Part shown: positions 9,257-18,790 of the stretch, one piece after another
Layout: every line of letters begins with the position of its first letter
Numbering within the stretch: position 1 is the first letter of the stretch
From: Parazoarcus communis
GTDB taxonomy: Bacteria; Pseudomonadota; Gammaproteobacteria; Burkholderiales; Rhodocyclaceae
DNA length: 64,000 nt
Assembly (NCBI RefSeq): GCF_003111645.1
Contig: NZ_CP022187.1
Location: forward strand, 3,534,001-3,598,000
Direction: 5' to 3'
Translations under genes and position numbers: made by a program
Notes under the pieces: model-generated
Seen by the model: the letters and a program-made list of their open reading frames with translations, nothing else
The model's database searches: none
What the model was told of the DNA's origin: nothing

Positions 9257-9814
9257 TCACGGCAAGGGCTGAATACGGCCCGCGAGTTCGAGCGCGTCGC
9301 CGGCGATGCGCATGACGACGAGTTCGCCCGAAGCCGGATAGACCCCACTCAGCGCCGTGATGTTCACCTGGTGGGTGACCAGGATCAGTGGCCCCGCTGC
9401 GGTGTCCGCGTCCCGCACCAGGGCGCGCACGGCGGCGCTGCGCTCCGCGGCGTGATCGCGCTCGTTGAAGAAGGAGTCCAGCGCCGGCGTCGGAATGACC
9501 GGGCCGAGGCCGAGCAGGCGAGCGGTGTCGAGGCAGCGGCACCAGCGACTCGAGTGGATGGTGGCGCGGGTGATGCCCTGCGCGCGCAAGCGTTCGCCGG
9601 TGGTGGCGGCCTGAGCGCGCCCGGCGGGGGAGAGGTTGCGCTGGGTGCTGCAGTCCCCGAGCACGAAGCCCGCCGGGTCTCCGATGCCGGGGGCGGGCGC
9701 ATGGCGCATCAGCGCCACATGTCCGCCCGCACGGAGGGCCGCCCAGAGGGATTCGTCATCGGCGATCGCCCCTGTGCTGAACAGCAACAACAGGCAGGTC
9801 ATCAGGTTTCTCAT
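9257..9814 (-). CDS. Secreted histidine phosphatase superfamily protein (SixA/phosphoglycerate mutase fold)
   Basis: A 185-residue protein with an N-terminal signal peptide ending near GAIADDE. The phosphatase core is RHAPAPG, preceded by VALM, with the nucleophile His; SSRWCRCLDTA gives the second Arg and LVTHQVN the second catalytic His. It should act in the periplasm on a phosphoester; the substrate is unknown. I chose the ATG at 9814 rather than 9826 because the upstream ATG lies inside the GGAG ribosome site that serves 9814. It is 110 bases upstream of cutA and may be a separate unit. Confidence 0.85.
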   Translation of the reverse strand: MRNLMTCLLLLFSTGAIADDESLWAALRAGGHVALMRHAPAPGIGDPAGFVLGDCSTQRNLSPAGRAQAATTGERLRAQGITRATIHSSRWCRCLDTARLLGLGPVIPTPALDSFFNERDHAAERSAAVRALVRDADTAAGPLILVTHQVNITALSGVYPASGELVVMRIAGDALELAGRIQPLP

Positions 9815-10061
9815 GCTGGTCTCCATTCTTGCATTTCACGAGCGGTGCTGTGCGGGCGCGCCGCAAGTCCGGCTTGCGTCCGACGCGCGCCGGGTTTGCG
9901 CCTGATCAAGCCTCCACCGTTAGCCCCTAGGTAGAATCCCCGAGCGCGCACCAGTGCGCGTAGAGCTACGCTGAGGGCCGCAGCATGATGTTCGAAGGCT
10001 ATGTCTAAAGGTATAGAATTCGATGGCATGTTCAGGGCTGTTGATTGTCAGGAGAATGTTG

Positions 10062-10718
10062 ATGTCTCATACGAATGCCAGGCCGTTTCTGGCCTCGGCC
10101 TGCTGCCTGCTTGTGCTCGGCGGGCTGTCGCTACCGTCGTTCGGCGCGGCAGATGCGGTTGCGGCAGACAAGCTGGTCGCACAACTGCAACGCAGCCCGG
10201 CCGATCTGCAGGCGGCGCAGGCCGAGGGCAGAAAGTCCTCGGCTTTCTGCGCAAACTGCCACGGCGAGACGGGCATCAGTCGCTATCCCGAAGTCCCCAA
10301 CCTGGCTGCTCAGCATCCCGACTATCTGCTCAGGCAGATCGATGCCTTTCTGACCGGCAAGCGCAAGAATGAGTTCATGCAGGGGCTGATGAAGGTGCTC
10401 AGCGAACGCGACAAGGCAGCCATCGTGCTTTTTTATGCGGCCGCTCCGGTGCAGGCCGCGACTGCGCCCGGCCCCCGTGCCGCGGAGGGTGAGGCGCACT
10501 TTGCCAAGCTGTGCGCGCGCTGCCACCGCGACGATGCACGCGGGGGCGACACGTTTCCCCGTCTGGCCGGGCAGCAGCGCGAATATGTCCGCCTCAGTCT
10601 GACGCGCTATCTGACGCAGTCGGGAGAACGTTTCTATGCGCCGATGACGGCAGCCGTCACCCAGCTCGGCAGGGACAACATCGACGCCGTCGCCGACTAC
10701 CTCTCCGGGCTGAAGTAG
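10062..10718 (+). CDS. Periplasmic diheme cytochrome c (c4-like)
   Basis: A 218-residue secreted protein: signal peptide (FLASACCLLVLGGL), then two CxxCH haem sites, CANCH and CARCH, each in a cytochrome c lobe (GETGISRYPEVPNLAAQ after the first, FPRLAGQQREYV after the second). Cytochromes of this type carry electrons to terminal oxidases or other periplasmic enzymes. Ribosome site GGAGA precedes the ATG at 10062; an in-frame ATG at 10056 is also possible. It lies 79 bases upstream of the TonB receptor and may be the first gene of that unit. Confidence 0.9.
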   Translation: MSHTNARPFLASACCLLVLGGLSLPSFGAADAVAADKLVAQLQRSPADLQAAQAEGRKSSAFCANCHGETGISRYPEVPNLAAQHPDYLLRQIDAFLTGKRKNEFMQGLMKVLSERDKAAIVLFYAAAPVQAATAPGPRAAEGEAHFAKLCARCHRDDARGGDTFPRLAGQQREYVRLSLTRYLTQSGERFYAPMTAAVTQLGRDNIDAVADYLSGLK

Positions 10719-10797
10719 GGGCCGCTTCAGGCGAACCGTCACGGCATGTGCCGCACATTCGGCATGTGAATCAAACGCCGAAACCGGCTTGGAAACA

Positions 10798-12804
10798 ATG
10801 AATCAAGATGCCGCACAGAAACTGACGCAGGACCGGCGGCTACGATCGCTTGTTCTCGCCCTTGCAATCGGATTCGCGTCCCATGGCAGTGGCGTGTCTG
10901 CCGCAGTGGCTGATGAGCTCGAGCTCGCCGAGCTGTCACTCGACGACCTGCTGCGAATTGAAGTCGTGGGTGCGACGCGCTACGCGCAGCCCCTGGCCGA
11001 CACCCCCGCCTCGGTCACGGTCATTGGCGCTGACGAGCTGCGGAACCAGGGCTATCGCAATCTCGGTGAGGCGCTTTCCACCGTGCCCGGCGTGTTTACG
11101 TCCAGCGATCAGAACTATACGTACCTCGGCGTCAGGGGCTTCAACCGCTCCGGCGATTACAACTCCCGCGTGCTGCTGGTCACCGACGGCGCCCGGCGCA
11201 ACGACGCACTTTTCGATCAGGCCCTGATCGGCAATGAGTCTCCGGTCGAGATCGACTGGATCAAGCGCCTTGAGTTCGTGTCCGGCCCGTCCTCGGCGGT
11301 CTATGGCGGCAACGCGCTGTTCGGGATCATCAACCTGGTGATGCTCGACGGTGGCGATGTCAATGGCACGCGAGTCAGTGTCGATGCGGGCAGCGGGCAG
11401 AGCCGGCGCGTCGGCGTGGTCGCCGGCCAGCGCATGGAGGGCGGGGGCGACTGGTTCCTTGGCTTCGCCGCCTACGGTGCCGAGGGCAAGGACCGCTACT
11501 ACCAGGAATACGACAGCGGCCTGAGTGACGGCTGGGCGCGCGGCCTCGACGGTGAGCACTACCGCAAGGTCTATGGCAAGTTGAGGCTTGGCAACTGGCG
11601 TCTGCTGGGCAGCTTCGCGACGCGTGAAAAGGCGATGCCGGGCGCGCCATATGGCACGGTTTTCGGCGAACCCGGCAGCGAGATCCTCGACCGCAGTTCG
11701 CTGATTGAGCTGTCCCACGATGACACCCTGAGCACCGGGTGGCGGCAGCATTTTTCGGTCTTCAGCGGTGCCTACCTTTACCGGGGGGACTACCGCTATG
11801 TGGGCGGGGTTGCCAATCGCGACGAGGCTGTCGCCGACTGGAGCGGACTGAACTACCGGCTGAACGGAACCGCAGGTGAAGATCACCGCTGGATGCTGGG
11901 TACCGAAGCGCAGTGGAACACCACCCTGAAACAGCGCAATTTCGATCGGGATCCCTACACAGAGGTCCTGAACACCAACAGCCCGTCGAGCACGTTCGGT
12001 GTGTTCGTGCAGGACGAGTGGCGTTTCCGCCCGCAGTGGCTGCTCAATCTGAGTCTGCGTCACGACAAGCACAGCGACTACGCCGCAATCGTTTCGCCCC
12101 GGCTTGCGCTGATCTACCAGCCCGACCGGGATCTGACCCTGAGAGCGGCCTACATGCATTCGTATCGGCCGCCCAATGCCTACGAACGCTACTATGCCGA
12201 CGGGGTGTTGCAGAAGGCAAATACGGATCTCGATCCCGAGTGGATCCGCAGCGTCGAGCTCGCGGCCGATGTTCGTCTCGGTCGCAGCGGCCGGGCCGGG
12301 GTCAGCATCTACCGCAACGACATCTACGACATGATTGCCGAGCAGCTCGACGCGAACGACGGAATGTGGGCCTATGCCAATCTGCCGCGAGTACGGGTTC
12401 ATGGCGTCGAAGTCGATGCCGAACACAGCTGGTCGGGCGGGTATGTGCTCCGCGGCAGCCTCGCATGGCAAGGTTCGCGCCTGAACGAGGGCGGCAGCCT
12501 GAAAAACTCGCCGGCCCTGCTCGGGAAGGTGGTGTTCTCGATGCCGCTGGATCTGCGCTGGAAGCTGTCCGGCCAGTGGCTGGGCATGACGTCCCGCCAG
12601 TCGAAAGCGGATCGGGTTTCCGGTCACGGCGTGCTCAACGTCGTGCTGTCGTCGGCCCCGTTTGCCGGTTGGGGCGAGTGGAGCGTCGGCATCTACAACC
12701 TCACGGATCAGCGCTACACCGACCCGGCCTCGTCTGCCTTCGTGCAGGACAGCATCGACCAGGACCGGCGGCAGATTCGCGTGCGCTGGCAGGTGGCGCT
12801 GTGA
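10798..12804 (+). CDS. TonB-dependent outer membrane receptor
   Basis: A 668-residue outer-membrane barrel with a plug domain. After a signal region ending near SGVSAAVADE comes LSLDDLLRIEVVGA, then the plug (ASVTVIGADELRNQGYRNLGEAL, VRGFNRSGDYNSRVLLVTDG in part, FVSGPSSAVYGGNALFGIINLV). The rest is barrel strands such as WLLNLSLRHDKHSDYAAIVSPRLAL in part, ending RQIRVRWQVAL. No STN signalling domain is present. Its stop overlaps the GTG of the YfiR-like gene, so the receptor is tied to c-di-GMP signalling rather than to a transporter. The ligand is unknown. Confidence 0.9.
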   Translation: MNQDAAQKLTQDRRLRSLVLALAIGFASHGSGVSAAVADELELAELSLDDLLRIEVVGATRYAQPLADTPASVTVIGADELRNQGYRNLGEALSTVPGVFTSSDQNYTYLGVRGFNRSGDYNSRVLLVTDGARRNDALFDQALIGNESPVEIDWIKRLEFVSGPSSAVYGGNALFGIINLVMLDGGDVNGTRVSVDAGSGQSRRVGVVAGQRMEGGGDWFLGFAAYGAEGKDRYYQEYDSGLSDGWARGLDGEHYRKVYGKLRLGNWRLLGSFATREKAMPGAPYGTVFGEPGSEILDRSSLIELSHDDTLSTGWRQHFSVFSGAYLYRGDYRYVGGVANRDEAVADWSGLNYRLNGTAGEDHRWMLGTEAQWNTTLKQRNFDRDPYTEVLNTNSPSSTFGVFVQDEWRFRPQWLLNLSLRHDKHSDYAAIVSPRLALIYQPDRDLTLRAAYMHSYRPPNAYERYYADGVLQKANTDLDPEWIRSVELAADVRLGRSGRAGVSIYRNDIYDMIAEQLDANDGMWAYANLPRVRVHGVEVDAEHSWSGGYVLRGSLAWQGSRLNEGGSLKNSPALLGKVVFSMPLDLRWKLSGQWLGMTSRQSKADRVSGHGVLNVVLSSAPFAGWGEWSVGIYNLTDQRYTDPASSAFVQDSIDQDRRQIRVRWQVAL

Positions 12805-13349
12805 GCCTGTCTGCGATGCGTTGTCTCGTTCTGGTCTGCGCCGCCGTGCTGGCGTTCGCGGTCGCGCTGCCCGGCCATGCGATTGCTCAGCATCGGGCGC
12901 CCGAGCCCGACCTCAAGGCGGCCATCCTGATCAACATGCTGCTGTTCATCGACTGGCCAGTGACCGGCGCGCAGTCGGACAAAGCCCTGTCGGTGTGCTA
13001 CTTCAGGGACAGTCCGGTTGCGGACGCGCTGGTCGTGCTCGATGGCAGGATGATCCGCAACAGGCTGCTCAGCGTGAAGCAGGTCGATGCCAGTGCGCTC
13101 GGCCGTTGTCATGCAGCCTATCTTGCGCCGGGCGACAATGCGCTGCTGAGCCACATGCGCGGCGACGTACTGCCCGGCGGCGTGCTGCTTGCCGGTGACA
13201 CGCCGGGCTACCTTGACCGTGGAGTCATGATCAACCTCGAGCTGGCCGCGGGGAAAGTCGCCTTCGATGTCGACCTGTCTGCACTGCGCCGCTCCGGGCT
13301 GAGCCTGAGCTCGAAGGCGCTGCGTCTTGCGCGTTCGGTGAGGGAGTAG
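12801..13349 (+). CDS. YfiR-like periplasmic protein (DUF4154 family)
   Basis: A 182-residue protein with a signal peptide (LVLVCAAVLAFAVALPGHA) and a mature part typical of YfiR/DUF4154: LKAAILINMLLFIDWP, LSVCYFRDSPVADAL, GRCHAAYLAP and the C-terminal FDVDLSALRRSGLSLSSKAL. In Pseudomonas, YfiR is the periplasmic repressor of the diguanylate cyclase YfiN. The GTG at 12801 overlaps the receptor's TGA; an ATG at 12816 is an alternative. The next gene, two bases after the stop, has the YfiN-type CHASE8 sensor, so direct control of that enzyme is a reasonable inference. Confidence 0.88.
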   Translation: MSLSAMRCLVLVCAAVLAFAVALPGHAIAQHRAPEPDLKAAILINMLLFIDWPVTGAQSDKALSVCYFRDSPVADALVVLDGRMIRNRLLSVKQVDASALGRCHAAYLAPGDNALLSHMRGDVLPGGVLLAGDTPGYLDRGVMINLELAAGKVAFDVDLSALRRSGLSLSSKALRLARSVRE

Positions 13350-13351
13350 GC

Positions 13352-15277
13352 ATGCCCTTCGCACACCGCATTCCGCGCGCTCACCGCCTGAGTTTCCTGT
13401 CGACCGGCCTGGCACTGCTCATTGCCTTCGTCCTGCTGATCGTTCATCAGTATTTCGTCGGGCGCCAGGTCCTGCTTGACGACCTCGCGACCGAAGCGGC
13501 GATCATCGCCGAGAACAGCAACGCTGCGGTGGTGTTCAATGATGCCGGCGCAGCGGGCGAGATCATTGCGGCCATCCGCCTGACGCCGCGCATCCTGTCG
13601 GGGGCACTGTACCGTGCCGACAACAGTTTTCTGGCCTCGTGGCCGGAGAATGATCCTGCGTTTCCGCCCTCGCTGGAGCCGGACATCGACGGCGACTGGC
13701 TCGGCGCCAATGCGTTGCCGAGCGAAACCACGCTGGGTCTGATGGGTGGGGTGATGCGCGAATCGGTTCGGGTGGAGGATGGCACCGTCGGCACCCTGAT
13801 CCTGAATGTGGATTTCAGCTCCCTGTACTGGCGCCTGCTCGAATATGCGGGCGGTGTGCTCGGTATTGCATCGGTGGCGCTGAGCCTCGCCTATCGTCTC
13901 ACCAGCAGGTTGCGCAAGCAGGTGTCCAGCACTGAACGACGCCTGGAGCGCCTCGCCCTGTACGACCATGTCACCAGCCTGCCCAACCGGCGCCTGTTCG
14001 AACAGGAGTTGCGCAAGGCTGTTGGCCGTGTCGGGCGCGACGCGAATTCGGCTGCGCTGCTTTTCCTGGATGTCGATGACTTCAAGAAGGTCAACGACTC
14101 TTTCGGCCACGAGGTCGGTGATCAGGTGCTGTGCATGATCGGGCAGCGCCTGTTGCACACCGTGCGCAACGGCGATGTCGTTGCGCGCATTGGCGGGGAC
14201 GAGTTTGCCGTGGTGCTGTTCGATATCGGTGGCCCGGACAATGCGGCAATGGTGGCCCGTAACCTGATTGCGGCGATCGGCAAGCCGTTTTCGACCGAGC
14301 CCACGCCGACCCATATCGGGCTCAGTGTGGGCATCGCCATGATGCCGGTCGATGGCGACGATCCGGCTGCCTTGCTGCGCCACGCCGACATGGCGATGTA
14401 TGTCGCCAAGGCACAGGGCAAGAACCGCTTCCAGTTCTTTTCCGAGGCGATTGACGGCAAGGTGCGCCAGGACCTCAGGCTCGAGTCCGCCTTGCGTCAG
14501 GCGCTCGAAAACAATGGCACTGGCCTCTGGGTCGCCTATCAGCCCAAGTTGTGCGCGAAAACGCGAGCGGTGGTCGGTGTGGAGGCGCTGACGCGCTGGC
14601 GCATGCCGGATGGTCAGGTGGTTTCGCCGGGCGAGTTCATTCCGGTGGCGGAACGCACGGGCCTGATCTCCGCGCTCGGCGACTGCATGCTGGAACGGGT
14701 CTGCACGGATCTCGGCGTTCTGAGAGGCGCCGGTTTCGAGTTCCCCACGGTCGCCGTCAACGTGTCCTCGCACCAGCTGCTTCAGGGCGAGGCCCTGGTT
14801 GAGCACTTCTGCGACACGATTGCCGCCCACGGCGAATCCGTGTGCAGGTTCGAGGTCGAGCTCACCGAAAGTGCATTGACCGATGCGCGTGGTGCCACGG
14901 TGCTCGAGGCGTTTCGCGTTGCCGGCTTCAAGCTGTCCATCGACGACTTCGGCACCGGCTACTCGTCGCTGGGTTATCTGAAGCGTTTCGATGTGAGTAC
15001 GCTGAAGATCGACCAGGGCTTCGTGCGTGACCTGCCGGCGGACCAGGAGGGTGCGGCGATCGTCATCGCCGTCATCCAGATGGCGCATGCACTGGGCATT
15101 GACGTGGTGGCCGAGGGTGTCGAAACCGAGGCCCAGGCAGACTTCCTGCGTGCCAACGGATGCGACGTGCTGCAGGGCTATCTGCTAGGCGTACCGATGC
15201 CGGTGAGCGAACTTGCAGAGTATCTGCACAAGCACCGGACGCTTGCAAAGCGTGTGCTTGCGGGGCATCCGATCTGA
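13352..15277 (+). CDS. Membrane-bound CHASE8-GGDEF-EAL protein (YfiN-like, bifunctional)
   Basis: A 641-residue inner-membrane protein. One helix near 17-36, a periplasmic CHASE8 sensor (AAIIAENSNAAVVFND, IRLTPRILSGALYR), a second helix near 165-185, then GGDEF (ARIGGDEF, I-site RNGD five residues before) and EAL (GVEALTRW, NVSSHQL, ELTES, DDFGTGYSSLGYLKRF, EGVETEAQ). Both active sites look intact, so it could make and break c-di-GMP. YfiN itself has no EAL. It is the third gene of the receptor-YfiR-cyclase unit, with GAGGGA before the ATG. Confidence 0.93.
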   Translation: MPFAHRIPRAHRLSFLSTGLALLIAFVLLIVHQYFVGRQVLLDDLATEAAIIAENSNAAVVFNDAGAAGEIIAAIRLTPRILSGALYRADNSFLASWPENDPAFPPSLEPDIDGDWLGANALPSETTLGLMGGVMRESVRVEDGTVGTLILNVDFSSLYWRLLEYAGGVLGIASVALSLAYRLTSRLRKQVSSTERRLERLALYDHVTSLPNRRLFEQELRKAVGRVGRDANSAALLFLDVDDFKKVNDSFGHEVGDQVLCMIGQRLLHTVRNGDVVARIGGDEFAVVLFDIGGPDNAAMVARNLIAAIGKPFSTEPTPTHIGLSVGIAMMPVDGDDPAALLRHADMAMYVAKAQGKNRFQFFSEAIDGKVRQDLRLESALRQALENNGTGLWVAYQPKLCAKTRAVVGVEALTRWRMPDGQVVSPGEFIPVAERTGLISALGDCMLERVCTDLGVLRGAGFEFPTVAVNVSSHQLLQGEALVEHFCDTIAAHGESVCRFEVELTESALTDARGATVLEAFRVAGFKLSIDDFGTGYSSLGYLKRFDVSTLKIDQGFVRDLPADQEGAAIVIAVIQMAHALGIDVVAEGVETEAQADFLRANGCDVLQGYLLGVPMPVSELAEYLHKHRTLAKRVLAGHPI

Positions 15278-15391
15278 CCGCTACTGTGCACAATCGCGTG
15301 GATGGCAAGCGGATGTGTCGGCTATCATGCGTCTGCCGATGTCTATAGCTAAAGCATTATTGCCTCGTGTCGTGGAAGGAGCCGGGAGCCA

Positions 15392-18300
15392 ATGAGGGTT
15401 CTCGCTTCGCTCAAGTACGTGCTGTCGCCACGCGCTGTCATCGGCTGGGCGGTGCTGCTTGTGGCCCTGTTCATCTACTGGGCTTCGCTGCTGCAATCGA
15501 ACGAGCAGCAACTGCTCGATGCCGAGCGTCAGGCCCGCCTGCGCGCCGGCCAGACGGCACAGGCGCTGGCCGCACAGGTCGAGTCGATGGTGCTCGATAT
15601 CGATCATATCGCGCGCAACATGGCGTCGGCGTGGATTTCGGGTGACGATGAGCGCTTGCGCCAAGCCGTTGTCGAGGCGAGCGACGCGCTTCCTGAAGGG
15701 GCGCTGGTTCAGGCCAGCGTGGCCGACGGCGAAGGCTACATGGTGTTCTCGAATCTCGGCCTGCCCGCTGAAGGTGAATCCCGGGTGTCCATCGCCGACC
15801 GCGCCCATTTCAAGGCGCACGGGTCCGGCATCGTGCCTGCGCTCTACATCAGTCACCCGGTCTTCGGTCGTGTGTCGCAGCGCTGGTCGGTGCAGTTCTC
15901 CCGGCCGGTCCTGACGCATGGCGTGTTTGCCGGCGTCGTCGTGATCTCGATCTCGCCGGAGTATCTCGCCCAGTCTTTCCGTCAGATCTTTCCCGATCCG
16001 ACCGACGTGGTGGCGTTGCTGCGCGAAGACGGGGCCTATCTGACGCGTTCGCACCTGCTGGAAGAGGTGCTGGGCAAAAGCGTTCCCGACGTGCGGCCCT
16101 TTATCGGTGACCTCGGGGCGCAGCAGGGCAGTTACGATGCCGTTGCCGCCGTGGATGGCGTGGAGCGTTTCTACGCCTGGCAGCGCGTGGCAGCTTACCC
16201 GGTGGTCGTCAGCCTGGGGCTGGACAAAGGCGTGGCGATGGGTGGGATCGCGGAAGCCGTCGATGCGGCGGTCCTGCACAACCTGTTCGGTTCGGCGCTG
16301 CTCTTGCTGGCCGCGGCCTGGATTACCTGGCTGTTTGCGCAGAAGCGTCGCGACTTTGCACATCTGAACGAAAGCGGGGAGCGCTTTGAACTCGCTCTGC
16401 GCGGGGGAGACCTCGGATCGTGGGACTGGGATCTTGCGAGCGGCAGGATTCAGGGCAATGCGCGCTGGGCGCAGATGCTGGGTTATGACGAGGACGAGGC
16501 CGAGCATGACCTCAAGTCTCTGTCCAGGCTCACGCACCCGGACGACTGGGACGCCGTGCAGTCTGCGCTCGATGCGCATTTCCGGGGCGAACGCGACTAT
16601 TACGAAGCCGACTACCGGGCGCGTCACCGCGACGGTCACTGGGTCTGGGTGCATAGCCGTGGCGAGATCATGGCACGCGACAAGAACGGCGACCCAGTGC
16701 GGATGGTTGGCACGCATCTGGACATTACAGAGCGCAAGCTGGCCGAAGCGCGCGAGCTCGATCTGCGGGCGCGGCTGTCCAAGCTGGTCGAGCAGGTGCC
16801 GGGGATGGTGTATCAGTATCTCGAACGCACCGACGGCACGTCCTGCTTTCCTTACGTCAGCCCCGGGGTTATCGACATCTATGGCATTTCGCCGGCTGAG
16901 GTCGAGGTATCGGCAGCAAGAGTCTTTGCCGTCATTCATCCGGACGATCTGCTGCGGGTGAAGGCCTCGATTCGCGACTCGGCCCGTCAGCTCTCCATCT
17001 GGCGCTGCGAGTATCGCGTCTGTACCGAAGACGGCAAGGTTCGCTGGCTGCTCGGGCATTCCAGCCCGGAGCGCACGCCCGAGGGCCATACACTGTGGCA
17101 TGGCTACATTCAGGACGTGAGCGAAGCCCACGCAGCGGCCGACGCCCTGCGCCACAGCGAAGCGCGTCTGCGCCTCACCGTGGCCGCGGTTCGGGACGGC
17201 TTGTGGGAGTGGGATCTGGATAGTGGCGAAGCGCAATGGGATGCGCGCTGCTACAGCATGGCGGGATACGCCGAGGGCGCCATCGAGTCCACCCACGACG
17301 CGTTCATGGCGCTCGTTCACCCCAGGGACCGGGCGCGCATCAAGTCGAGTCTGTCCAATCAGATCCGCTTCAGGCCGGATGAGGTCGCCACCGAAGAGTT
17401 CCGTGTAAAGAAGGGATCGGGCGACTGGCTGTGGATCGAATGGCGGGGAAGCGTCGTCGAGCGTGAACACGGTGTCCCGAAAAAGATGATCGGCACCATT
17501 ACCGATGTCACCCAGAGGGTGGCCGCCAACCAGTTCCGGCGTGCGCTGCTGGACCAGAATGCGGCGGCAATCGTGGTGTCCTCCCCTGACCGGTATGTGC
17601 TGTATGCCAATGAGCGCGCACACCAGATCTTTGCGCCGCCGGGGGAGATGCTGCAGGGGGTGGAGTTGCGCACCCTGCATGTCGACGATGCGTCGTGGCA
17701 GGCCATGGGCGGGTACGTCGACACGCTGCGTGCAAGCGGGTTTGCGCGCTTCGAGTATCCGCTGCGCGACGCCGACGGCAAGGCGCGCTGGTTCGACATG
17801 CATGGCACGGTGCTCGATCAGGAGCAGCCCGACAGCGAGATGCTGTGGACCCTGGTGGATATCACCGAACGAAAGGCCGCAGAAGCGGCGCTCATCACCG
17901 AGCGCACACGTCTGACCGCACTGCTCGAGCGCTTTCCCGGTGGCGTACTGCTGGAAGACTCGGCCGACCGGATCGTGATGGTCAACCAGGGCTTGTGCGA
18001 GCTGCTGTCGATTCCCTTGCCGTCGTCTTCGCTGGTGGGCATGACGCGGCAGTCGCTGGGCGAGCGCTTTCCCGAACTCGACCTGAGATGGCTGCAGCTC
18101 GAAGAGGGGGCGCACGTTGGGCTGGCACACACGATCGAAATCGACGCGGCGGGCAACCAGGCGTTTGAAGTCGATTGGGTGACGATCATGCATGGTGACG
18201 AGCGCCTCGGCCATGTATGGCTGGTGCGCGACATTACCGGGCGTAAGCTCTATGAAAGAAAGCTCGCCGCCCTGGCGGCCACGGACCCGCTGACCACGCT

Positions 18301-18790
18301 GCCCAACCGCCGCAGTTTCATGGCCGAGCTCGAACGCACGGTGGCCGAACAGCAGAGCGTGGACGACCGTCCGGGTGCCCTGTTGATGCTGGACATCGAC
18401 CACTTCAAGCGGGTCAACGATACTTACGGTCATCCGGTAGGCGACCGCGTGCTCAAGCACCTGGCAGACGTGATCACCAAGGTGTTGCGGCGAGAGGATG
18501 TCGCCGGGCGCCTGGGGGGCGAGGAGTTTGCCGTCCTGCTGCGCGGTACGACGAACGAGACGTCCTTCGGCCTGGCCGAACGTTTGCGGTGGGCGGTATG
18601 CAATGCGCCGCTCGATTGCGACGATGGCCTGATCCAGATCACGATCAGTATCGGCCTGGCCGTGTTTGATGGCGCTCCGGCAGAGAGCATGCTATCGCGT
18701 GCCGACCAGGCCCTTTACGAAGCCAAGGAAGGCGGGCGTAACCGGGTGTGCATGTGGTCGGGGGGCGGGCGTCTATTGAGCGCCGGATAA
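15392..18790 (+). CDS. Sensor diguanylate cyclase with periplasmic cache-type domain and five PAS modules
   Basis: A 1132-residue protein: membrane helix near 16-32, periplasmic dCACHE-like sensor (LDIDHIARNMASAW to VVVSLGLDKG), second helix near 290-312, then about five PAS/PAC units between 330 and 950 (GSWDWDLASG, FPYVSPGVIDIYG, GLWEWDLDSG, AIVVSSPDRYVLYANE, GVLLEDSADRIVMVNQ) and a C-terminal GGDEF with GRLGGEEF and I-site RRED. No EAL. It begins 114 bases after the GGDEF-EAL gene and may be cotranscribed. The PAS count is by eye. Confidence 0.92.
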   Translation: MRVLASLKYVLSPRAVIGWAVLLVALFIYWASLLQSNEQQLLDAERQARLRAGQTAQALAAQVESMVLDIDHIARNMASAWISGDDERLRQAVVEASDALPEGALVQASVADGEGYMVFSNLGLPAEGESRVSIADRAHFKAHGSGIVPALYISHPVFGRVSQRWSVQFSRPVLTHGVFAGVVVISISPEYLAQSFRQIFPDPTDVVALLREDGAYLTRSHLLEEVLGKSVPDVRPFIGDLGAQQGSYDAVAAVDGVERFYAWQRVAAYPVVVSLGLDKGVAMGGIAEAVDAAVLHNLFGSALLLLAAAWITWLFAQKRRDFAHLNESGERFELALRGGDLGSWDWDLASGRIQGNARWAQMLGYDEDEAEHDLKSLSRLTHPDDWDAVQSALDAHFRGERDYYEADYRARHRDGHWVWVHSRGEIMARDKNGDPVRMVGTHLDITERKLAEARELDLRARLSKLVEQVPGMVYQYLERTDGTSCFPYVSPGVIDIYGISPAEVEVSAARVFAVIHPDDLLRVKASIRDSARQLSIWRCEYRVCTEDGKVRWLLGHSSPERTPEGHTLWHGYIQDVSEAHAAADALRHSEARLRLTVAAVRDGLWEWDLDSGEAQWDARCYSMAGYAEGAIESTHDAFMALVHPRDRARIKSSLSNQIRFRPDEVATEEFRVKKGSGDWLWIEWRGSVVEREHGVPKKMIGTITDVTQRVAANQFRRALLDQNAAAIVVSSPDRYVLYANERAHQIFAPPGEMLQGVELRTLHVDDASWQAMGGYVDTLRASGFARFEYPLRDADGKARWFDMHGTVLDQEQPDSEMLWTLVDITERKAAEAALITERTRLTALLERFPGGVLLEDSADRIVMVNQGLCELLSIPLPSSSLVGMTRQSLGERFPELDLRWLQLEEGAHVGLAHTIEIDAAGNQAFEVDWVTIMHGDERLGHVWLVRDITGRKLYERKLAALAATDPLTTLPNRRSFMAELERTVAEQQSVDDRPGALLMLDIDHFKRVNDTYGHPVGDRVLKHLADVITKVLRREDVAGRLGGEEFAVLLRGTTNETSFGLAERLRWAVCNAPLDCDDGLIQITISIGLAVFDGAPAESMLSRADQALYEAKEGGRNRVCMWSGGGRLLSAG

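Follow-up and report, generated by a model that had tools for sequence, protein, structure and literature searches.

Which protein supplies the outer-membrane input of Yfi systems that have no YfiB? Malone et al. 2012 (PMC3375315) described YfiR-YfiN as a core of modular design whose output can be GGDEF-EAL, HPT or a kinase, and because distant Yfi systems almost all lack YfiB, their outer-membrane input was left open. Here, we address this question at a locus of Parazoarcus communis, contained in a stretch of 64,000 nucleotides (contig NZ_CP022187.1, positions 3,534,001 to 3,598,000; the window), in which the genes of a TonB-dependent receptor (TBDR), of the periplasmic protein YfiR (DUF4154) and of a CHASE8-GGDEF-EAL enzyme of cyclic di-GMP (c-di-GMP) follow each other. 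In the genomes surveyed, the commonest neighbour of YfiR was a TBDR whose N-terminus carries a distinctive segment. We read the receptor, with a probability of about 0.58, as providing the outer-membrane input to Yfi modules that lack YfiB and whose outputs are interchangeable (a kinase, or the GGDEF-EAL enzyme found here), i.e. as one member of a three-protein signalling system across the envelope.

A conserved receptor-YfiR-CHASE8 unit

All features given below lie on the forward (+) strand of the window. The receptor gene (positions 10798-12804; ATG at 10798, TGA at 12802-12804) encodes 668 residues with a plug (PF07715, residues 66-177, E 3e-20) and a TonB barrel (PF00593, residues 298-635, E 3e-37), both above the cut-off; these two families alone matched in Pfam at E 0.01, so that no STN domain was found, and the AlphaFold model is strand-rich (mean pLDDT 75.9). 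YfiR has 182 residues (12801-13349; GTG at 12801, TAG at 13347-13349; PF13689, E 1.3e-29), and its start overlaps the receptor stop by 4 nt (GTGA). The ATG of the inner-membrane enzyme (641 residues, 13352-15277) lies 2 nt past yfiR, and its domains were assigned by Pfam and a motif search. The overlapping unit that an earlier note on this DNA had claimed is thus borne out by sequence and Pfam domains. The genome, a single contig of 4.57 Mb, encodes eight plug-domain TBDRs and a single protein each with DUF4154 and with CHASE8, and its sole YfiR and sole CHASE8 enzyme are therefore neighbours. In a BLASTP search against the open reading frames of the loci fetched for comparison, a set dominated by YfiR-linked receptors, the 30 best matches of the receptor were itself and YfiR-linked receptors, and the nearest other receptor of its own genome ranked 130th. 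We found no sign of a plasmid home for the unit, the sole matches being 36-44 bases long and all within the EAL region.

Is this arrangement common among YfiR genes? DUF4154 was found in 73/150 genomes of the family, 32/229 of a class sample and 50/200 of a phylum sample. We fetched 180 stretches with 183 YfiR genes (102 family, 41 class, 40 phylum); 6 of the 108 family places are not among them, and 40 stretches each stand for 56 class and 70 phylum places, counted with the window's genome excluded. Neighbours were called with profiles for which the window proteins served as seeds, or the fetched loci in the case of the kinase and OmpA profiles, and counted as directly upstream or downstream when the gap between profile matches was below 450 nt. 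A TBDR lies directly upstream of YfiR in 120/183 cases and a CHASE8 protein downstream in 153/183. Since our home-made CHASE8 profile also matched an sCache_4 sensor (locus L221, see below), Pfam was run on all 153 regions at E 0.01 and confirmed CHASE8 in 152 (21/21 TBDR-linked GGDEF-EAL enzymes, 82/82 TBDR-linked kinases and 49/50 others). The grouping of receptor, YfiR and enzyme is confirmed as more than chance, with the three genes touching or overlapping and their order recurring widely, and the linkage that the earlier note had proposed to survey holds across genomes.

In the family, TBDR, YfiR and CHASE8 occur together with a kinase output in 52 of the 102 cases, with GGDEF-EAL in 17 (69/102 for these two outputs), with GGDEF in one and with other outputs in two; a further 8 have a TBDR and no CHASE8. 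The family cases without a TBDR comprise 12 CHASE8-kinases, 6 CHASE8-GGDEF proteins (4 of them with an OmpA-like gene) and 4 with neither. None of the 17 CHASE8-GGDEF-EAL enzymes of the family lacks the TBDR link. Among the 41 class genes, a TBDR accompanies 14 kinases, 3 GGDEF-EAL enzymes and 2 YfiR without CHASE8, and is missing beside 8 kinases, 5 GGDEF-EAL enzymes and 9 with neither; the corresponding numbers for the 40 phylum genes are 16 kinases, one GGDEF-EAL, one GGDEF and 3 without CHASE8 with a TBDR, and 11 kinases, 4 GGDEF (3 with OmpA) and 4 with neither lacking one. Among the 21 cases of TBDR-linked GGDEF-EAL, L158 additionally shows a kinase match ahead of GGDEF. In a scan of named genomes, a single-sequence query gave no relatives and an alignment of the YfiR clade gave 23, four of which were already in the 183-gene sample. 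The order TBDR-YfiR-CHASE8-GGDEF was present in all 23, from genera including Azoarcus, Rhodoferax, Azonexus, Propionivibrio, Formivibrio, Duganella and Pseudoduganella; EAL was visible in 21, and contig ends cut the other two. One of these loci (L241, Azoarcus sp. L1K30, of the same genus as the window) and L034 of genome G067 represent one and the same DNA.

That the TBDR stands where YfiB would be is supported at the gene level. An OmpA-like gene on the same strand was found by our home-made profile at 0/120 TBDR-linked YfiR genes vs 7/63 of the others, and within 6 kb on each side of the window locus the same profile gave no such match. Classical yfiR-yfiN-OmpA-type loci occur beside the TBDR type in the family (L033, L119, L123, L124), one of them, L033 of genome G067, within the genus of the window. 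Other layouts were also seen: a tandem TBDR pair followed by YfiR, a CHASE8 kinase and, downstream, a further GGDEF-EAL gene (L037, L039, L043); a DAHL-domain histidine kinase directly 5' of YfiR and no TBDR (L162:6574-8370, L163:4035-5858); and receptor and CHASE8 matches in one long frame with YfiR in another, perhaps a draft-genome frameshift (L131:3164-7987).

The SLEELL box and the signature of YfiR

Shortly past its likely signal peptide, the receptor carries a ten-residue segment that we call the SLEELL box (residues 43-52, LAELSLDDLL; 10924-10953), followed by what we take to be the TonB box (residues 54-60, IEVVGAT; 10957-10977) and then by the plug. Across 22 aligned receptors, L43, L48 and L51 of the SLEELL box and V56 and A59 of the putative TonB box are invariant, and YfiR-adjacent receptors share a segment of the form LxxLSLExLLxxEV ahead of the TonB box. 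Residues 21-72 have pLDDT values below 50, and the finding of invariant residues within a stretch of no confident structure suggests that the box is a docking peptide.

We built a model of this region (A1, 50 columns) from 28 YfiR-linked receptors, 25 of them from the family; most other receptors match it only from about position 10-14 onward. The following counts are all among the matches listed. In the family, 95 of 150 receptors have the box, of which 83 lie within 5 kb of YfiR and 3 more at about 5.1 kb; for those without the box this holds for 2/55, one of which is cut by a contig end. The class count (rows down to E 3.6e-7, the window's genome excluded; later rows start at model position 10 or beyond) gave 53 box receptors, 25 of them near YfiR and 52/53 in YfiR-bearing genomes, and 49/63 class receptors without the box are in genomes without YfiR. 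The phylum sample holds 64 box receptors: 47 near YfiR, 14 with YfiR elsewhere in the genome (together 61/64) and 3 without. No box receptor was among the matches listed for three genomes with an OmpA-linked YfiR (G563, G497 and G533; L199, L200 and L205). With the NCBI model for the receptor TOL_0244, 14 of the 15 above-cut-off matches among those listed begin at position 1-3, the fifteenth lies at a contig edge, and many weaker ones begin at 14-15, a split that is by score and made without comparison to YfiR places. Judged from these alignments, receptors beside YfiR share a distinctive N-terminal box ahead of the TonB box, which we present as new.

Does YfiR itself differ with its partner? 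The predicted model of the window YfiR (pLDDT 88.3) is closest to P. aeruginosa YfiR (4zhu; VIA Z 17.4, rmsd 2.4, 141 aligned), followed by two binding proteins, 3lkv (Z 13.2) and the L-Trp-bound 3lft (Z 12.7). It retains Cys66 (12996-12998) and Cys103 (13107-13109), the equivalents of Cys71 and Cys110 in P. aeruginosa, and has no equivalent of the Cys145-Cys152 pair. Cys71-Cys110 is kept in 21/21 YfiRs of the TBDR-linked GGDEF-EAL type, 76/82 of the TBDR-linked kinase type and 7/7 OmpA-linked ones; Cys145-Cys152 occurs in 7/7 OmpA-linked YfiRs, in 2/3 that are GGDEF-linked with no detected OmpA or TBDR, and in 0/171 others. For these cysteine pairs and for the AAVVF motif below, the pattern was loosened after the outcome of a stricter one, whose counts are unused. 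From these alignments, TBDR-linked YfiRs carry a partner-specific signature, the lack of Cys145-Cys152, unlike the OmpA/YfiB-linked ones. Further positions, with residue roles taken from PMC4655355, PMC4887326 and PMC3375315, were compared as well: Phe151 is kept in 1/82 and Pro178 in 4/82 of the kinase type and both in 0/21 of the GGDEF-EAL type, while Phe162, Leu181 and Leu183 are kept in 20/21, 20/21 and 21/21 of the GGDEF-EAL type and in 64/82, 76/82 and 60/82 of the kinase type. In a YfiR tree of 182 rows, made by a quick method with 2 of the 183 genes too short for alignment, a clade of 10 (SH-aLRT 99) unites P. aeruginosa YfiR with the OmpA-linked YfiRs and with two that are GGDEF-linked, and 16/21 rows of the TBDR-linked GGDEF-EAL type fall within one clade of 19 (SH-aLRT 91, not starred).

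At the other end of the unit, the enzyme matches CHASE8 (E 1.8e-13, profile 3-76 of 102), GGDEF (E 2.6e-49) and EAL (E 3.5e-66). It holds the GGDEF, RxxD and EAL motifs and all five further EAL motifs sought, and its relatives carry the same motifs with a few gaps. An EAL next to GGDEF, as the earlier note had it, is thus present, and from their motifs both domains look functional, so that either activity may prevail in the net c-di-GMP output. Pfam gave no HAMP match in the enzyme. GGDEF starts 180 residues past the start of the CHASE8 match, within the 167-181 residues found in 16/21 TBDR-linked enzymes; in OmpA-linked enzymes this distance is 218-225 residues in 6/7 and 153 in the seventh. 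Because of the shorter spacing, HAMP seems absent in most TBDR-linked enzymes. Within CHASE8, residues 58-62 (13523-13537) are an exact AAVVF, in the context NAAVVFND (residues 57-64), the proposed YfiR-binding patch of YfiN (PMC3375315). The Phe of this patch is invariant in all 153 aligned CHASE8 regions (21/21, 82/82, 50/50), and the loose pattern is met by 21/21 TBDR-linked GGDEF-EAL and 73/82 TBDR-linked kinase proteins. That the contact patch between YfiR and CHASE8 is kept is supported by this sequence comparison.

A possible receptor-driven relay and its alternatives

How could such a unit transmit a signal? We propose that, at the outer membrane, the TBDR fills the role of YfiB. In the resting state, YfiR would sit on the AAVVF patch of CHASE8 and hold the GGDEF-EAL enzyme in one state. 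A ligand bound or moved by the receptor, in a TonB-dependent manner or not, would free the flexible N-terminus facing the periplasm, and the freed SLEELL box beside the TonB box would capture YfiR, upon which the net c-di-GMP output of the enzyme would shift. Speaking for this reading are the recurring receptor-YfiR-CHASE8 linkage, the uniqueness of YfiR and CHASE8 in the genome, the occurrence of the box together with YfiR, the partner-specific YfiR signature and the invariant Phe of the AAVVF patch, as well as the reports on YfiB and TOL_0244 cited below. The locus is a real, conserved module, and we take it as a Yfi variant with the receptor as its probable input. More tentatively, and with odds that we put somewhat below even, YfiR may be a general periplasmic coupler of TBDRs with the box as docking peptide, and YfiB-less Yfi systems an unrecognised receptor-driven class with interchangeable outputs, in which binding proteins can replace YfiR. 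The box being a ten-residue peptide makes the docking idea directly testable.

Several observations weigh against the receptor as input. A TBDR directly upstream is missing at 63/183 YfiR genes; at 10 of these it lies directly downstream (e.g. in L171, whose YfiR follows a CHASE8-GGDEF gene), at 6 a contig end is near, and most of the remaining ones have no TBDR close by. Explaining the neighbour state (TBDR, OmpA or none) on the YfiR tree takes 31 changes, more than the 14 for the output, and receptor adjacency is therefore labile. Among the class matches listed, 27/53 box receptors have their YfiR elsewhere in the genome, 23 of these 27 sitting in just three genomes, and one class, three phylum and three family box receptors, the latter all of one genus, are in genomes with no detected YfiR. 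Moreover, the co-occurrence of box and YfiR is partly circular because model A1 came from YfiR-linked receptors, and it may reflect the descent of one operon. The 31 changes, together with the 12/102 family YfiRs that have a CHASE8-kinase and no TBDR directly upstream, also favour the simpler explanation that receptor and enzyme share a lifestyle and a promoter, with YfiR acting on the enzyme independently of the receptor. We consider mere co-expression improbable: the box tracks YfiR-bearing genomes even with the genes apart, which is beyond what shared transcription alone predicts.

Could YfiR instead sense what the receptor imports? In that case, the receptor would act as a transporter and would not signal to YfiR by contact; YfiR, built as one lobe of the substrate-binding-protein fold, would bind the imported ligand, and its loaded or empty form would switch CHASE8. 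The nearest folds after YfiR itself are indeed the binding proteins named above, and P. aeruginosa YfiR has been reported to bind L-Trp and vitamin B6, although with affinities given as 35-77 mmol/L (PMC4887326). In two loci of a genus (g20) with no YfiR detected in the genomes searched (L221:7872-11946, L222:7878-11946), a box TBDR is followed by a 312-residue ABC_sub_bind protein and then by a GGDEF gene with a membrane/periplasmic sensor, in L221 an sCache_4-GGDEF and not CHASE8 by Pfam. CHASE8 is described as a Cache-like sensor (PMC8846402), and we counted sCache_4 as Cache-like by its name. The third locus of the genus (L223) has no such gene adjoining the receptor on its strand. In L234, an NMT1-like binding protein is flanked by a box TBDR on one side and, on the other, by a hybrid kinase that matches dCache_1 weakly. 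Binding proteins in the place of YfiR, together with its nearest folds, therefore support sensing of an imported ligand by YfiR or a binding protein; however, this explanation leaves the conserved N-terminal box unexplained, and we regard it as unlikely. Least probable, in our estimate, is that the kept pair of the Cys71-Cys110 type makes YfiR a reporter of periplasmic redox, with the receptor linkage secondary. The retention of this pair in 21/21 and 76/82 YfiRs of the two TBDR-linked types, the dsbD and cutA genes nearby in the genus and the redox behaviour reported for YfiR (PMC4655355) and HmsC (PMC5550408) speak for it, but the window YfiR lacks the 145-152 pair, on which folding was reported to depend in P. 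aeruginosa, relatives of dsbD and cutA were found only in the genus and in two loci without YfiR, and the idea gives the receptor gene no reason.

The suggestions of the earlier note on a further neighbour and on ligands found no support. A diheme c-type cytochrome gene (10062-10718; two CxxCH motifs, CANCH and CARCH; Pfam Cytochrom_C in two stretches) lies upstream of the unit and had been suggested as part of the relay; its relatives occur in 3/180 loci, all of the same genus, as well as in L241, which is the named counterpart of one of these three. We rejected it as a module part on this same-genus-only distribution; it looks genus-specific and is probably not part of the module. Downstream, a dCache_1/multi-PAS GGDEF protein (15392-18790), identified by Pfam and locus comparison, has full-length relatives in same-genus loci only. 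A siderophore or corrinoid as ligand is without support, because the window contains no match to a 19-bp Fur-box consensus even when 3 mismatches are allowed, and no Rfam family, and so no riboswitch, at gathering cut-offs. By consensus, no sigma-70-like promoter was found in 9800-15500. Upstream of the unit, the window contains ribE, ribBA, dsbD and cutA, and these rib-gene surroundings might hint at a flavin ligand. In two further loci (L226:2926-9076, L224:2980-10988), a box TBDR without YfiR adjoins relatives of dsbD/cutA and ribBA; in L226 it has ribBA on one side and a lumazine-binding (ribE-like) gene on the other.

Comparison with known systems

How much of this was known? NCBIfam already names a triad of a TBDR (TOL_0244, NF053590), a YfiR-like protein (TOL_0243, NF053591) and an 'HK near YfiR-like' (NF053592), and the variety of outputs was described by Malone et al. 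2012. The triad resembles the window unit in its receptor-YfiR input and related sensor, and differs in its output, a kinase there and GGDEF-EAL here. The window proteins fall well below all three NCBIfam cut-offs (115.5/645 bits for the TBDR, 74.3/125 for YfiR and 83/194 for the enzyme), and a kinase-type locus of the family (L046) scores 644.7/645, 133.2/125 and 172.8/194. For Thalassolituus, TOL_0244 was reported as up sevenfold on C28 alkane vs Tween 80, and the detection of alkanes and the triggering of chemotaxis have been ascribed to its relative OmpS (PMC6304351). The section on YfiB-less systems in Malone et al. 2012 (PMC3375315) names no receptor, and TonB is absent from its main text; the terms TonB and YfiR are likewise absent from a 2022 review of c-di-GMP inputs (PMC8846402), and a literature search, judged by its listings and with subscription literature largely beyond its reach, turned up no paper on a TBDR-YfiR link.

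The closest relatives in design are YfiBNR and AwsXRO of Pseudomonas, which likewise combine a YfiR-fold periplasmic protein, a PAS/CHASE8 enzyme with an AAVVF patch and an outer-membrane partner. HmsCDE of Yersinia shares this three-part layout. The outer-membrane partner of YfiBNR is the OmpA-like lipoprotein YfiB, whereas here it is a TBDR; P. aeruginosa YfiR has the Cys145-Cys152 pair that the window YfiR lacks; and YfiN has the order PAS-HAMP-GGDEF with no EAL, whereas the window enzyme has an EAL and a spacing that leaves little room for HAMP. In YfiBNR, YfiR acts as the repressor of the enzyme and becomes sequestered at the outer membrane. YfiB reaches the YfiR pocket via a residue beside its N-terminal linker, reported as Met59 (PMC4655355) or Phe57 (PMC4887326).

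A TBDR as a sensor is also the principle of the STN-domain transducers of FecR/FecI-type sigma regulation, from which the window receptor differs in giving no STN match and in being encoded with a c-di-GMP enzyme as output. If our reading of the receptor as input is right, TBDRs would gain, besides STN/FecR, a second signalling route that reaches kinases and c-di-GMP, and what the receptor encounters outside would be reported inside the cell as a c-di-GMP signal.

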